From Dehalogenimonas etheniformans (lineage in GTDB: Bacteria > Chloroflexota > Dehalococcoidia > Dehalococcoidales > Dehalococcoidaceae), in NCBI RefSeq assembly GCF_014672715.2, contig NZ_CP058566.2, positions 1,054,001 to 1,118,000 of the forward strand: DNA of 64,000 nt. The letters are read 5' to 3'. Made by a program: the position numbers and the translations under genes. This document shows, piece after piece, positions 2,007-6,135 of this stretch. Under the pieces are notes generated by a model. The model saw only the letters and a program-made list of their open reading frames with translations. It had not been told where the DNA came from and did not search any database. Each line of letters starts with the position of its first letter. Position 1 is the first letter of the stretch.

Positions 2007-2034
2007 TTGACGTCACATACAGGTTTGCTACAAT
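2007..2034 (+). promoter_or_regulatory. Sigma-70-type promoter of the aminomutase operon
   Basis: TTGACG (2007-2012), 16-base spacer, TACAAT (2029-2034) preceded by TGC, an extended -10. Transcription would start near 2041, about 23 bases before the GTG start at 2064, which has AGGAG at 2053-2057. This gives the downstream four-gene operon its own promoter. Confidence 0.65.
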
Positions 2035-2063
2035 GAATACATTCATATTTCTAGGAGCATCAA

Positions 2064-3365
2064 GTGAAAGAAGAAACTCTAATAACCGAAGATCCGGCTG
2101 ATCCCCCCTCGTGTTCGCACGAAGCTGACGAACCTCCCCTTACTTCGTCACAAGTTTTTCGCCTCAAGTTTTACCCCGATGTCAGCGATATCCAGTGGAA
2201 TGACTGGCACTGGCATTTCAAGAACCGCATCACCTCAATAGAAGACCTCATCCGATTTATTCCCCTGTCCGTCAAGGAAAAAACCCGTCTCAAACTGGTA
2301 ACCGCCCGTTATCCGTTAGCCATCACGCCTTATTATCTCTCCTTGATGGATCTTTCCAATCCCAATGACCCCATTCGACTCCAGGCTGTCCCATCAACGC
2401 TGGAAATGGCCGGCGGCATCGGCAACGAAGACCCCCTGGCTGAAGAACGGGATTCTGTAGTTCCCGGTCTGGTCCACCGCTACCCCGACCGTGTCCTGAT
2501 GGTGTTGACCGATATCTGCGCCATGCTCTGCCGCCACTGCACCCGCAAGCGGGAATGGCAGCACGGTGGCTGGATCCACACCCCTGAACAAGTCGAACGC
2601 ATGCTGGACTATATCCGGAAGAACACTCAGATCAGGGATGTCATCATCTCCGGAGGCGACCCGCTGACCCTTTCGACCCACCAACTCGAGAAGGTCCTGA
2701 TTGCGTTACGTCAGATCAAGCACGTCGAGATCATCCGCATCGGCACCCGGTTCCCCGTCGTTCTGCCGCAGCGTATCGATGCTGAGCTCTGCGACATGCT
2801 TTCCAAATACGGACCCATCTGGCTCAATACCCACTTCAACCACGTAAATGAGATAACCCCGGAAGCCGCCGCTGCCTGTGATCGCTTACTCCGGGCTGGT
2901 GTCCAGGTTAATAACCAGAGTGTCCTGCTGCATGGCATTAACGATACCGTGGAAACACAGCTAAAATTGTGCCACGGTCTGTTAAAAGCCAAGGTACGTC
3001 CCTACTACCTCTTCCAGTGCGATCAGGTTCAGGGCACGGAGCATATGTGGACGCCCGTCGAGGTCGGTTTGCGCATCATCGAAGGCATGCGTGGACACAC
3101 CTCCGGCCTTGCCATCCCGAACTATGTAATAGACCTGCCGGATGGCCGGGGCAAGATCCCGATTAGCCCAAACTATGTTTTGACCCGCACTGACAGCGAG
3201 TTGGTTGTCCGGAACTATGAGGGACACATCAGCCACTTCGTCAATCCCAAGCCGGCGCCCGCTCCCCGCAAGCCCCGCCCGGTTTCTCCACCTGTGCCCC
3301 AACTTTCGCTTGATTGGACAGTAACTGAGGTAAAGAATGAAAATAGGGCTGGCGTACGACCTTAA
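2064..3365 (+). CDS. kamA: KamA-family radical SAM lysine 2,3-aminomutase-like protein
   Basis: Predicted PLP- and [4Fe-4S]/SAM-dependent enzyme that moves an alpha-amino group to the beta carbon (L-lysine to beta-lysine in the type enzyme). The radical SAM CX3CX2C motif is C152, C156, C159. K364 in DGRGK fits the PLP-lysine position. Asp320 and Asp357 align, from my memory of clostridial lysine aminomutase, with Asp293 and Asp330, which hold the lysine side chain; glutamate aminomutases lack this pair. The Cys-rich C-terminal zinc motif of the clostridial enzyme is absent, replaced by a Pro-rich tail (about residues 395-415). GTG start with AGGAG upstream. First gene of an operon with two ATP-grasp ligases and a GNAT. 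Substrate is inferred, not proven. Confidence 0.88.
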   Translation: MKEETLITEDPADPPSCSHEADEPPLTSSQVFRLKFYPDVSDIQWNDWHWHFKNRITSIEDLIRFIPLSVKEKTRLKLVTARYPLAITPYYLSLMDLSNPNDPIRLQAVPSTLEMAGGIGNEDPLAEERDSVVPGLVHRYPDRVLMVLTDICAMLCRHCTRKREWQHGGWIHTPEQVERMLDYIRKNTQIRDVIISGGDPLTLSTHQLEKVLIALRQIKHVEIIRIGTRFPVVLPQRIDAELCDMLSKYGPIWLNTHFNHVNEITPEAAAACDRLLRAGVQVNNQSVLLHGINDTVETQLKLCHGLLKAKVRPYYLFQCDQVQGTEHMWTPVEVGLRIIEGMRGHTSGLAIPNYVIDLPDGRGKIPISPNYVLTRTDSELVVRNYEGHISHFVNPKPAPAPRKPRPVSPPVPQLSLDWTVTEVKNENRAGVRP

Positions 3366-4350
3366 ACAATCCGTTACCGCTGTGCCCGCCGCCCCAGTTG
3401 ATGCTTTAGAAGAATACGATTCAGCCGATACTGTCAATCTCCTCGCCGCCGCTATCGAGGAAGCCGGTCACCGGCCGGTCAAACTCGGCGGCGGTCGCGA
3501 GTTTTTAGACAATGTTCTGACCAATCCGGTTGATTTCGTCTTCAACATCTCTGAGGGCCGGGGTGCCTATCGTTCCCGAGAGGCCCAGGTACCTTCCGTG
3601 CTGGAAATGCTGGGCATTCCATATTCAGGAGCCGATCCGCAGACCCTTGCGATCGCCCTAGACAAGCCGCTGACCAAGCAGATCGTTCAACTGGCAGGAG
3701 TCACGACGCCGCAGTGGCGTTTCTTCAATAAACCGGAAGAAGCCCGCCGTGCGGACTGGCATGATTTCCGTTTTCCTGCCTTCGTTAAACCGGCGTTCGA
3801 AGGTTCAAGCAAGGGCATCCGCCTGACCTCGACAGCCGCCAACCCCAATGAGGTGATTGCCCATGTGCGGCAGCTTTACGAGGGTTACGGTCAACCTGTC
3901 ATTGTTGAAGAATTTATCGACGGCGACGAGGTCACCTGCGGAATCATCGGCAATGTCACGGCAAACGGTCCGCAGCCTCTGGTTTTGCCCATGCGCATTA
4001 TACTCCGTCAGAAAAAGGGCCCTTTCATCTATTCTCTTGAGGTTAAACGGGACTACAAAAAGCTGGTCGACTATGAGTTTCCAGCGCAGCTTCCGGAGTC
4101 CATCATCGATCGCATCAAATCGCAGGCGTTGACTGTATTCACCACCCTTGGCTGCCGGGATTTCACCCGAATGGATTTCCGCATCGCCGCCGATGGCACG
4201 CCTTACTTCCTTGAGGTCAACCCCCTGCCCGGCCTCTCACTGGATAGTGATCTCTTTATTATCACCACCAGCATGGGGTGGAGCCATTCCAGGTTGATTG
4301 TCACAATTCTCGAGAACGCACTTTCCAGATACCCTTCCTTATGCAAATAG
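3337..4350 (+). CDS. D-Ala-D-Ala ligase-like ATP-grasp enzyme 1
   Basis: 337 residues, close to the 300-350 of D-alanine-D-alanine ligases. ATP-grasp features in order: N-terminal Rossmann-like part, NISEGRG (about residue 68), KPAFEGSSKGI (about 150), VEEFIDGDEVT (about 189), and the metal-binding EVNPLPGLS (about 298). Such enzymes couple ATP hydrolysis to amide bond formation through an acyl phosphate. The ATG overlaps the end of kamA by 29 bases and has GAGGTAAAG just before it. A second ligase follows with overlap. The absence of any other cell-wall gene and the linkage to an aminomutase suggest joining of a beta-amino acid rather than housekeeping D-Ala-D-Ala synthesis; this is inference. 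Confidence 0.85.
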   Translation: MKIGLAYDLKQSVTAVPAAPVDALEEYDSADTVNLLAAAIEEAGHRPVKLGGGREFLDNVLTNPVDFVFNISEGRGAYRSREAQVPSVLEMLGIPYSGADPQTLAIALDKPLTKQIVQLAGVTTPQWRFFNKPEEARRADWHDFRFPAFVKPAFEGSSKGIRLTSTAANPNEVIAHVRQLYEGYGQPVIVEEFIDGDEVTCGIIGNVTANGPQPLVLPMRIILRQKKGPFIYSLEVKRDYKKLVDYEFPAQLPESIIDRIKSQALTVFTTLGCRDFTRMDFRIAADGTPYFLEVNPLPGLSLDSDLFIITTSMGWSHSRLIVTILENALSRYPSLCK

Positions 4351-5336
4351 CGCTTATCTATAATGCTCCCATCCCCTCCCTCTACGATGCCCGTGGCGAA
4401 TCCAAAGCCGAATCGGGAGTTCTTGAAGCAGTAAAAGCTGTCCGGCGCTCCATCCGAGCATTGGGGTACAATCTCGTCGAATTTCCTTTGGTACCGCCGC
4501 TATCGAGCGTCAGAAAAACACTCTCGTCGGTTAACGCGGATTGCGTTTTCAATCTCTTTGAAGGTTTCGCCGGCCTACCACGGACTGAGGCCGAGGTTGC
4601 CGATTGCCTTGAGGAATTGGAACTACCGTTCACCGGATCGCCGTCATTAGCACTTTTATTAGCTCTAGATAAAGCGGCCACAGCACGGGAGTTGAGCCGT
4701 CATGGTATTCGCACTGCCGCCCAACAATTGCTCAACACTGAAACCGTCTCCGGTTTTCGTTTGAAATTCCCTTGCATCGTAAAACCGCGAGCCGACGATG
4801 CTTCACACGGTCTTTCTGAAAACAGCGTCGTGTTTGATACCGGCGCACTTTTCCAGGAGGTAAAAGCCACCGTCGATCGTTACGACGGCGCGCCCGCCCT
4901 GGTGGAAGAGTTTCTTCCGGGGCGTGAGTTCAATGTCACCGTTTTCGGCAATTCAACTCCGGAAGTTTTGCCATTATCGGAAATTATCTACACTCTCCCC
5001 GCGGGCCTACCCAAGATTTTAACCTTCGCAGCCAAGTGGGAGCCGGAGAGTTCCTATTTCCAAAACACCAACGTTAAATGCCCGGCTGAAGTTACGCCGG
5101 AACTCGCGGCCGATCTAAGGTCAACCGCATTGGCGGCTTTTAAATCCATCGGCTGCCGAGGCTATGCCAGAGTCGACATGAGGCTTGATCCCGAGGGACA
5201 TCCGGTGGTCATGGAAGTCAACGCCAATCCGGATCTTTCACCAGACGCCGGTACAGTTCGTCAGGCAAAGAAATCAGGCCTATCATATAAGGGCATGGTG
5301 TCTCGCATCATCGAATTTGCTTTGGAGAAAGCATGA
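4341..5336 (+). CDS. D-Ala-D-Ala ligase-like ATP-grasp enzyme 2
   Basis: Start taken at the ATG at 4341 (331 residues), where the recognisable N-terminus MQIALIYNAP begins and overlaps the stop of ligase 1 by ten bases; the frame is open further upstream to 4278, but that part is only a shadow of ligase 1. ATP-grasp motifs: NLFEGFAG, KPRADDASHG, VEEFLPGREFNV and the metal-binding EVNANPDLSPDAG near the end. It is clearly a diverged paralogue of ligase 1 and not a duplicate, so the two probably use different acceptor or donor amino acids. No obvious Shine-Dalgarno, consistent with translational coupling. Cytoplasmic. Confidence 0.83.
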   Translation: MQIALIYNAPIPSLYDARGESKAESGVLEAVKAVRRSIRALGYNLVEFPLVPPLSSVRKTLSSVNADCVFNLFEGFAGLPRTEAEVADCLEELELPFTGSPSLALLLALDKAATARELSRHGIRTAAQQLLNTETVSGFRLKFPCIVKPRADDASHGLSENSVVFDTGALFQEVKATVDRYDGAPALVEEFLPGREFNVTVFGNSTPEVLPLSEIIYTLPAGLPKILTFAAKWEPESSYFQNTNVKCPAEVTPELAADLRSTALAAFKSIGCRGYARVDMRLDPEGHPVVMEVNANPDLSPDAGTVRQAKKSGLSYKGMVSRIIEFALEKA

Positions 5337-5809
5337 TCGCCTACCGTGATCTTATTGCCGCCGACCGCCCGGCCATCACTGAGTTCTTGAAGTGGATACC
5401 GGAGTTCGCCCCGGACGAGTTGCCTGTGGCTGAGGAAGTTCTCGACGATTCCCTTGACGAGTCCCACGAGTCAGGCTATTACACAATCGTCGCCGTCAAA
5501 GATGGTTGCCCTGTGGGGTACGTCACTTATGGCAATACCCCGTTATCGAAGGGCAACTGGGAGATCTACTGGGCGGCTGTGAACCCGACTGAGCAGGGCA
5601 GGGGCATTGGGCGGGAACTGATGTACAGAGCTGAGGAAGCTATTAAGGGATTGGGTGGCTGGCAGATAACCCTGGAGACTTCTTCGACACCACTGTACGA
5701 AAAAACGCGCCGGTTCCACATGAAATGCGGTTTCAAAGAGATCGTGCGCATCCCGGATTTTTATGACCGGGATGATGATCTTGTGATATTCTTCAAAAAA
5801 CTGGAATAG
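5333..5809 (+). CDS. GNAT-family N-acetyltransferase, last gene of aminomutase operon
   Basis: 158 residues, single GNAT domain. The acetyl-CoA pyrophosphate loop is EQGRGIGRELM (about residues 86-96), followed by the helix and the typical C-terminal strand ending in DLVIFFKK. The ATG overlaps the ligase 2 stop (ATGA), so translation is coupled. In organisms making N-epsilon-acetyl-beta-lysine, an aminomutase (AblA) pairs with an acetyltransferase (AblB); AblB is longer than this protein, so the resemblance is of logic, not of proven orthology. The protein could acetylate the product of the ligases or remove toxicity by capping an amine. Confidence 0.8.
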   Translation: MIAYRDLIAADRPAITEFLKWIPEFAPDELPVAEEVLDDSLDESHESGYYTIVAVKDGCPVGYVTYGNTPLSKGNWEIYWAAVNPTEQGRGIGRELMYRAEEAIKGLGGWQITLETSSTPLYEKTRRFHMKCGFKEIVRIPDFYDRDDDLVIFFKKLE

Positions 5810-5832: not shown

Positions 5833-6135
5833 TTATCCCGAGTGCGACATAAGTTTACAGAAATTCCGCCCGTTGCCTTGAGCTAGCTCACATTCGCTGC
5901 AAAGGCATTCGACACCCACCGTAGTATCATCCACGGCCGGCGCTCCAGCTGCCTTGCGACAGTAAAGTCCTTGGAACTTATCCTCCGGTTCTTCATCGAA
6001 CATGTTTCCCATAAGCTCTTTCAGTCTGTTGCTGTTGCATGCTCGCTGTTTTGAAGTGCTGCAGTCTGGGCAGCGGCAACGAAGCAAATCTTCGGGAATT
6101 TCTTGGGCAGTAATATTCAAGTCTTCAATTGTCAT
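5833..6135 (-). CDS. Small Cys-rich protein, DUF2769-like
   Basis: 100 residues with eight cysteines arranged as CRCPDC near residue 20, LYCRK in the middle, then CLCSEC and a final FCK. The two CxCxxC clusters with a YC/FC residue after each recall DUF2769 proteins, which are small, uncharacterised and probably bind zinc or an iron-sulfur cluster. Family assignment is from memory of the pattern. Convergent with the GNAT gene (24 bases away) and divergent from the histidine kinase at 6207. No function is claimed. Confidence 0.65.
   Translation of the reverse strand: MTIEDLNITAQEIPEDLLRCRCPDCSTSKQRACNSNRLKELMGNMFDEEPEDKFQGLYCRKAAGAPAVDDTTVGVECLCSECELAQGNGRNFCKLMSHSG

Follow-up and report, generated by a model that had tools for sequence, protein, structure and literature searches.

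What does a KamA-type aminomutase make when it is encoded together with two ATP-grasp ligases and a GNAT acetyltransferase? This question is raised by four genes near the start of the window, by which we mean the whole 64,000-nucleotide stretch analysed here (positions 1054001-1118000 of a single-contig 2.07 Mb genome, which its relatives place in Dehalococcoidia, probably in Dehalogenimonas). A preliminary description, made from the sequence, had proposed a beta-lysine peptide pathway with an osmolyte, a wall cross-link, or a small peptide as the product. To evaluate this proposal, we compared the genes with curated protein families, predicted structures, and the corresponding loci of other genomes.

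Four overlapping genes lie behind a conserved promoter

The features considered here are as follows (window coordinates):

629-1945, + strand: MFS transporter (MFS family match), upstream of KamA
1964-1998, + strand: upstream element, an AT palindrome TAAAAATATTTTTTA plus a TAGCT-N7-AGCTA inverted repeat
2007-2034, + strand: predicted sigma-70-type promoter, TTGACG-16-TACAAT, kept in relatives
2064-3365, + strand: KamA, radical SAM/PLP aminomutase, GTG start; probable lysine 2,3-aminomutase
3337-4350, + strand: Lig1, ATP-grasp ligase of the Ddl fold and the most constant KamA partner
4341-5336, + strand: Lig2, another ATP-grasp ligase of the Ddl fold, its pocket altered, ATG start; fused to GNAT at locus L030
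5333-5809, + strand: GNAT N-acetyltransferase, not AblB; matches Pfam GNAT families

We placed the Lig2 start at the ATG at 4341; the mechanical open reading frame begins earlier, with a GTG at 4278. The genes run head to tail, and the open reading frame coordinates bear out the overlaps of 29, 10, and 4 bases (KamA/Lig1, Lig1/Lig2, and Lig2/GNAT) that had been noted initially. Twenty distinct loci, some of them in Dehalococcoides-like genomes, share a KamA/Lig1 overlap of exactly 29 bases. The promoter, also anticipated in the preliminary description, scores highest in the region (10/12) and carries a TG ahead of the -10 box. Immediately 5' of the -35 box lies the upstream element, whose blocks are invariant in six same-genus genomes and which is probably a regulator site. 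Because both the promoter and the two palindromes are conserved among the same-genus genomes compared, regulation probably acts at the KamA operon itself. No second exact copy of the upstream element occurs elsewhere in the genome, and we therefore rejected it as the mark of a regulon.

The aminomutase retains the residues that hold lysine

The solved lysine 2,3-aminomutase 2a5h can be aligned with most of the KamA chain. In this alignment KamA retains R161 along with the CxxxCxxC cluster cysteines C152/C156/C159, the PLP lysine K364, D320, and D357, the last six being the residues singled out in the preliminary description. We take R161 to be the equivalent of R134 in lysine 2,3-aminomutase (LAM), and D320 and D357 to be those of Asp293 and Asp330. 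In LAM, the arginine holds the carboxylate of lysine and the aspartate pair holds its epsilon-amine. Of the 161 KamA sequences that we collected, 159 have these substrate residues together with the cluster cysteines and the PLP lysine.

Against the curated NCBIfam model for lysine 2,3-aminomutase (TIGR03820), KamA scores 466.1 bits, under the equivalog cut-off of 525.4, and it also falls below the cut-offs for arginine 2,3-aminomutase (TIGR04468, 405.9 against 600), glutamate 2,3-aminomutase (TIGR04368, 452.7 against 650), and EpmB (TIGR03821, 242.4 against 369.3). The shortfall from the lysine 2,3-aminomutase model leaves room for a different basic amino acid as substrate, and the best-surviving alternative holds that the enzyme acts on ornithine, arginine, or a similar substrate to supply a different beta-amino acid peptide. 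A plasmid-borne relative (L132, described below) adjoins genes for 2,4-diaminobutyrate and 2,3-diaminopropionate, which also speaks for this alternative. Against it stand the shortfalls from the arginine and glutamate models and a comparison with BlsG of Kitasatospora, which at 646.8 bits exceeds the TIGR04468 cut-off; BlsG has the first lysine-holding aspartate and lacks the second, whereas KamA has both. By this contrast an arginine aminomutase identity is disfavoured, and we consider the alternative as a whole unlikely. From the conserved binding residues and the BlsG contrast, we infer that lysine is the substrate of KamA.

In the phylogenetic tree, the clade of the window KamA includes members from Omnitrophota and Acidobacteriota (support 0.979) and is separate from the clade containing 2a5h (0.984). 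The ligase-linked KamAs are spread over several lineages rather than forming one clade, so the product may differ among lineages. The genome has no match to the beta-lysine 5,6-aminomutase of lysine fermentation (PF09043), a result shared by the control genomes.

Aminomutase and ligase genes are linked across phyla

We collected KamA relatives from public genomes and read their neighbours by comparison with each operon protein. Lig1 or Lig2 adjoins KamA in 27 of the 30 closest relatives (L002-L031) and in none of the 49 that are more remote (L033-L081), which are chiefly from Bacteroidota and Firmicutes. Three close relatives break the pattern, and for two of them, L010 and L022, a ligase-linked KamA is present elsewhere in the genome. 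When the genome of the window is counted with 40 relatives, Lig2 is present at 280 bits or more in 20 of the 41. The order KamA-Lig1-Lig2-GNAT is found in many genera of Dehalococcoidia and in Acidobacteriota; it is permuted to Lig1-Lig2-GNAT-KamA at loci L029 and L207, and at L030 Lig2 and GNAT form a single protein beside Lig1 and KamA. That linkage survives both permutation and fusion speaks for a common pathway. KamA and Lig1 stand alone, without Lig2 or GNAT, in Dehalococcoides-like genomes and at L014.

Among 199 genomes of Acidobacteriota, Lig1 was found in 35 (at E 1e-60) and KamA in 42 (at E 1e-100): both genes in 34, Lig1 only in one, KamA only in eight, and neither in 156. KamA thus occurs in 34 of 35 genomes with Lig1 versus 8 of 164 without it (Fisher p = 1.6e-29, with relatedness among genomes ignored). 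The two genes lie close together in 28 of the 35 genomes; of the seven Lig1 loci without a nearby KamA, six are in genomes with KamA elsewhere and one is in a genome with none. Lig1-type ligases are present in 86 of 193 Omnitrophota genomes, and in all 20 loci read there KamA is adjacent to one or two of them, with no GNAT at any of the 20. Lig1 relatives occur in 46 of 301 Chloroflexota genomes, the strong ones in Dehalococcoidia. No Lig1 was found at 1e-60 in 295 Bacillota genomes, a result of little weight as the genomes listed were small and gave no positive, and phages gave distant Ddl-like matches only.

Recurrence in Dehalococcoidia, Acidobacteriota, and in part Omnitrophota leads us to reject a local oddity of gene order; the concern raised at the outset, that the order might not be conserved outside close relatives, is answered by the same data. 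Comparative genomics supports a view in which the operon genes act together, with KamA and Lig1 as the recurrent core and Lig2 and GNAT as its extension.

Related arrangements were seen at several other loci. On plasmid pTHIMO01 of Thioflavicoccus mobilis (L132), KamA adjoins a Ddl-like ligase, and the neighbours are a diaminobutyrate transaminase, SbnA, and an ornithine-cyclodeaminase-type gene; this is perhaps a diamino-acid peptide cluster. In one Omnitrophota locus (L254:6035-7021), KamA-Lig1 is followed by a protein whose sequence, on inspection, resembles ATP-grasp enzymes and has no NCBIfam match, possibly a third ligase. Rhizobial symbiotic plasmids L131 and L304 carry lone ATP-grasp proteins nearer to Lig1 than plasmid Ddls are, with no annotated KamA alongside, and on rhizobial plasmids L297 and L298 KamA adjoins an ATP-grasp protein of the carboxylase type, a further case of KamA paired with a ligase.

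The acetyltransferase is not AblB

The fourth gene was described initially as a GNAT, and its matches to Pfam GNAT families, with a weak likeness to RimI, agree. It gives no match to the AblB model (TIGR03827, cut-off 205.1 bits), and an AblB-type identity was rejected on this ground. Nor does the genome contain AblB over the cut-off: the best score is 20 bits, outside the operon, and control genomes were positive. These results bear on a second alternative, a variant of the N-epsilon-acetyl-beta-lysine osmolyte route in which KamA and GNAT make the solute while the ligases are bystanders or act in some other step. The same type of first enzyme, KamA residues like those of lysine 2,3-aminomutase, and a GNAT in the operon all favour such a route. 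The GNAT is nevertheless unlike AblB, the genome lacks an AblB, and the constant partner of KamA is Lig1 rather than GNAT, which is missing from Omnitrophota loci, Dehalococcoides-like genomes, and L014. We regard this route as quite improbable.

The MFS gene lies directly upstream of KamA in five of seven same-genus genomes fetched and in Dehalococcoidia loci L005, L008, L010, and L028, and a relative is close to KamA-Lig1 in one Omnitrophota genome. Its position suggests that it may be linked to the operon, possibly as exporter or importer of the product. On the other side, a small cysteine-rich protein (window 5833-6135, - strand) is encoded convergently with the operon and kept beside it in same-genus genomes; it has no Pfam or NCBIfam match.

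The ligases depart from D-Ala-D-Ala ligases

The two ligases were described at first as non-identical and D-Ala-D-Ala ligase (Ddl)-like, and both points hold: they are 29% identical, and each is a Ddl-type ATP-grasp fold. Structure prediction gave confident models for both (mean pLDDT 90.8 for Lig1 and 93.5 for Lig2), which match D-Ala-D-Ala ligases across the entire chain in structure comparison (Ddl fold Z >30), and both proteins keep the ATP-grasp and metal-binding residues of Ddl. The best scores against the Ddl subfamily models of NCBIfam, whose cut-offs range from 243 to 262 bits, are 162.4 for Lig1 and 135.2 for Lig2, short by about 80 bits or more. The N-terminal SxE(R/H)EVS motif of true Ddls is absent from both, and in the tree they form two clades separate from true Ddls.

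The pockets are changed as well. The substrate triad of Escherichia coli DdlB is E15-S150-Y216. Lig1 retains the metal and transition-state residues of Ddl and keeps the Glu and Ser of the triad, with R238 at the Tyr216 site; it also carries invariant E25, E26, D28, R238, and D305. Relative to DdlB, Lig2 has A154 for Ser150, W233 for Tyr216, and D298 for Gly276. For both ligases, the alignment with Ddl is uncertain in its N-terminal part. The extra acidic residues would suit a substrate bearing additional amines. Given the changed pocket residues, the missed cut-offs, and the absent motif, we rejected an ordinary D-Ala-D-Ala ligase identity for both proteins, an identity that the preliminary description had named as fatal to its proposal.

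A third alternative keeps the ligases in the envelope, as D-Ala-D-Ala ligases or makers of an envelope cross-link, and treats the operon as a wall remnant. It can draw on the Ddl fold, on the walled ancestors of Dehalococcoidia, and on the report that ddl is widely present in this class despite loss of core peptidoglycan genes in orders including Dehalococcoidales (PMC10284905). In the same report, however, Dehalococcoides and Dehalogenimonas are listed as lacking peptidoglycan or without data (PMC10284905). The constant partner of the ligases, moreover, is an aminomutase, and the two proteins differ from true Ddls in score, motif, and clade as set out above. We consider a wall remnant very improbable and a cell-wall role for the operon unlikely. 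The reported lack of peptidoglycan in these lineages (PMC10284905) also speaks against the wall cross-link offered earlier as one possible product.

The genome has a third Ddl-like ATP-grasp gene, placed at 1818174-1819304 (L291:6175-7305) or, more narrowly, at 1818204-1819139, again without the canonical Ddl motif or a score over the cut-off, and no wall genes were recognised beside it. Because the Ddl-like genes found here are Lig1, Lig2, and this non-canonical paralogue, the "ddl" of wall-less Dehalococcoidia may be mostly this pathway, and the KamA-ligase gene set may explain the reported distribution.

Proposed pathway

We conclude, with a probability of roughly 60%, that the operon is biosynthetic and that its product is a small amide or peptide containing a beta-amino acid. 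In the proposed sequence, KamA would convert L-lysine to beta-lysine by shifting its alpha-amino group to the beta carbon; Lig1 would form an acyl phosphate at the expense of ATP and go on to build an amide in which beta-lysine takes part; Lig2 would attach a further residue or amine; GNAT would N-acetylate a free amine on the substrate or product of Lig2; and the co-conserved MFS protein may transport the product. Sequence and predicted models support, for each enzyme, the assigned fold and catalytic machinery, while we infer the lysine substrate, the carboxylate activated, the partner residues, the order of bonds, the amine acetylated, and the role of the product. As to that role, our first guess would be a cytosolic protective or osmotic solute, and our second a signal. 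The earlier proposal of a beta-lysine peptide pathway thus survives in outline (a conserved gene set, ligases that are not ordinary Ddls, lysine-binding residues, and no AblB over the cut-off), with the wall cross-link disfavoured.

EpmB, which is related to KamA, supplies the beta-lysine of EF-P, and ATP-grasp enzymes such as RimK modify proteins, precedents for an operon that modifies a protein (for example, placing beta-lysine onto EF-P with an ATP-grasp enzyme replacing EpmA), but this is very improbable given a KamA score of 242 against the EpmB cut-off of 369, the use of free amino acids by Ddl-type ligases, and the better fit of a small molecule to two ligases and a GNAT.

A broader and more tentative proposal, which we put forward as possible, is that an aminomutase and ligases derived from Ddl produce, with neither NRPS nor ribosome, an undescribed and widespread class of small N-acetylated beta-lysine peptides, and that these are a common solute or signal of Chloroflexota and Acidobacteriota and, in a shorter form, of Omnitrophota. 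If the biosynthetic reading is correct, a metabolic module is conserved in at least three phyla and is kept as KamA and Lig1 even in streamlined Dehalococcoides-like genomes. It would also assign a role to the ligases that carry a Ddl annotation in peptidoglycan-free bacteria, and so bear on the argument over wall evolution in Dehalococcoidia. As the four enzymes are small and soluble, the product is directly testable in vitro.

Comparison with known systems

The operon shares the Ddl fold as a whole and the ATP-grasp and metal residues with Ddl, and differs in pocket, curated cut-offs, and wall context. Like the N-epsilon-acetyl-beta-lysine pathway (ablA/kamA plus ablB; PMC11337218), it has a KamA-type enzyme with lysine-binding residues and an acetyltransferase; unlike that pathway, it lacks AblB, and ATP-grasp ligases rather than GNAT are the constant KamA partner.

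In a blasticidin-type cluster of Kitasatospora (L301), a KamA-family 2,3-aminomutase lies beside an ATP-dependent carboxylate-amine ligase and MFS transporters, a pairing as found here, and its BlsG is 47% identical to the window KamA. The blasticidin S route uses an arginine aminomutase and gives a nucleoside, whereas lysine is the probable substrate here. The blasticidin-type ligase is not significantly similar to Lig1 (BLASTP E 0.064), although a shared superfamily is possible, and the stretch read has no second Ddl-type ligase or GNAT annotated, unlike the operon.

The Pbo cluster of Pseudomonas syringae has an MFS gene (pboE), a KamA-like gene (pboF), and an ATP-grasp gene (pboG) in one operon, with pboG likened to a Bacillus licheniformis L-amino acid ligase and NRPS-type genes in the cluster (PMC8473136). 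It shares the MFS, KamA-like, and ATP-grasp combination with our operon and differs by ligase type and by its NRPS-type genes. N-acetylglutaminylglutamine amide synthesis yields an N-acetylated dipeptide solute through an acetyltransferase and an ATP-grasp ligase, which are joined in one protein in Ngg. In architecture this fusion resembles the Lig2-GNAT protein of L030, but that system has no aminomutase and a different ligase family.

The gene set was not found described in the open-paper literature, though a 2009 survey of ATP-grasp amidoligases may mention it. None of the blasticidin-type, Pbo, or rhizobial plasmid precedents was seen to use the Lig1/Lig2 pair plus GNAT, and the gene set is apparently a widespread, undescribed variant of a known theme.
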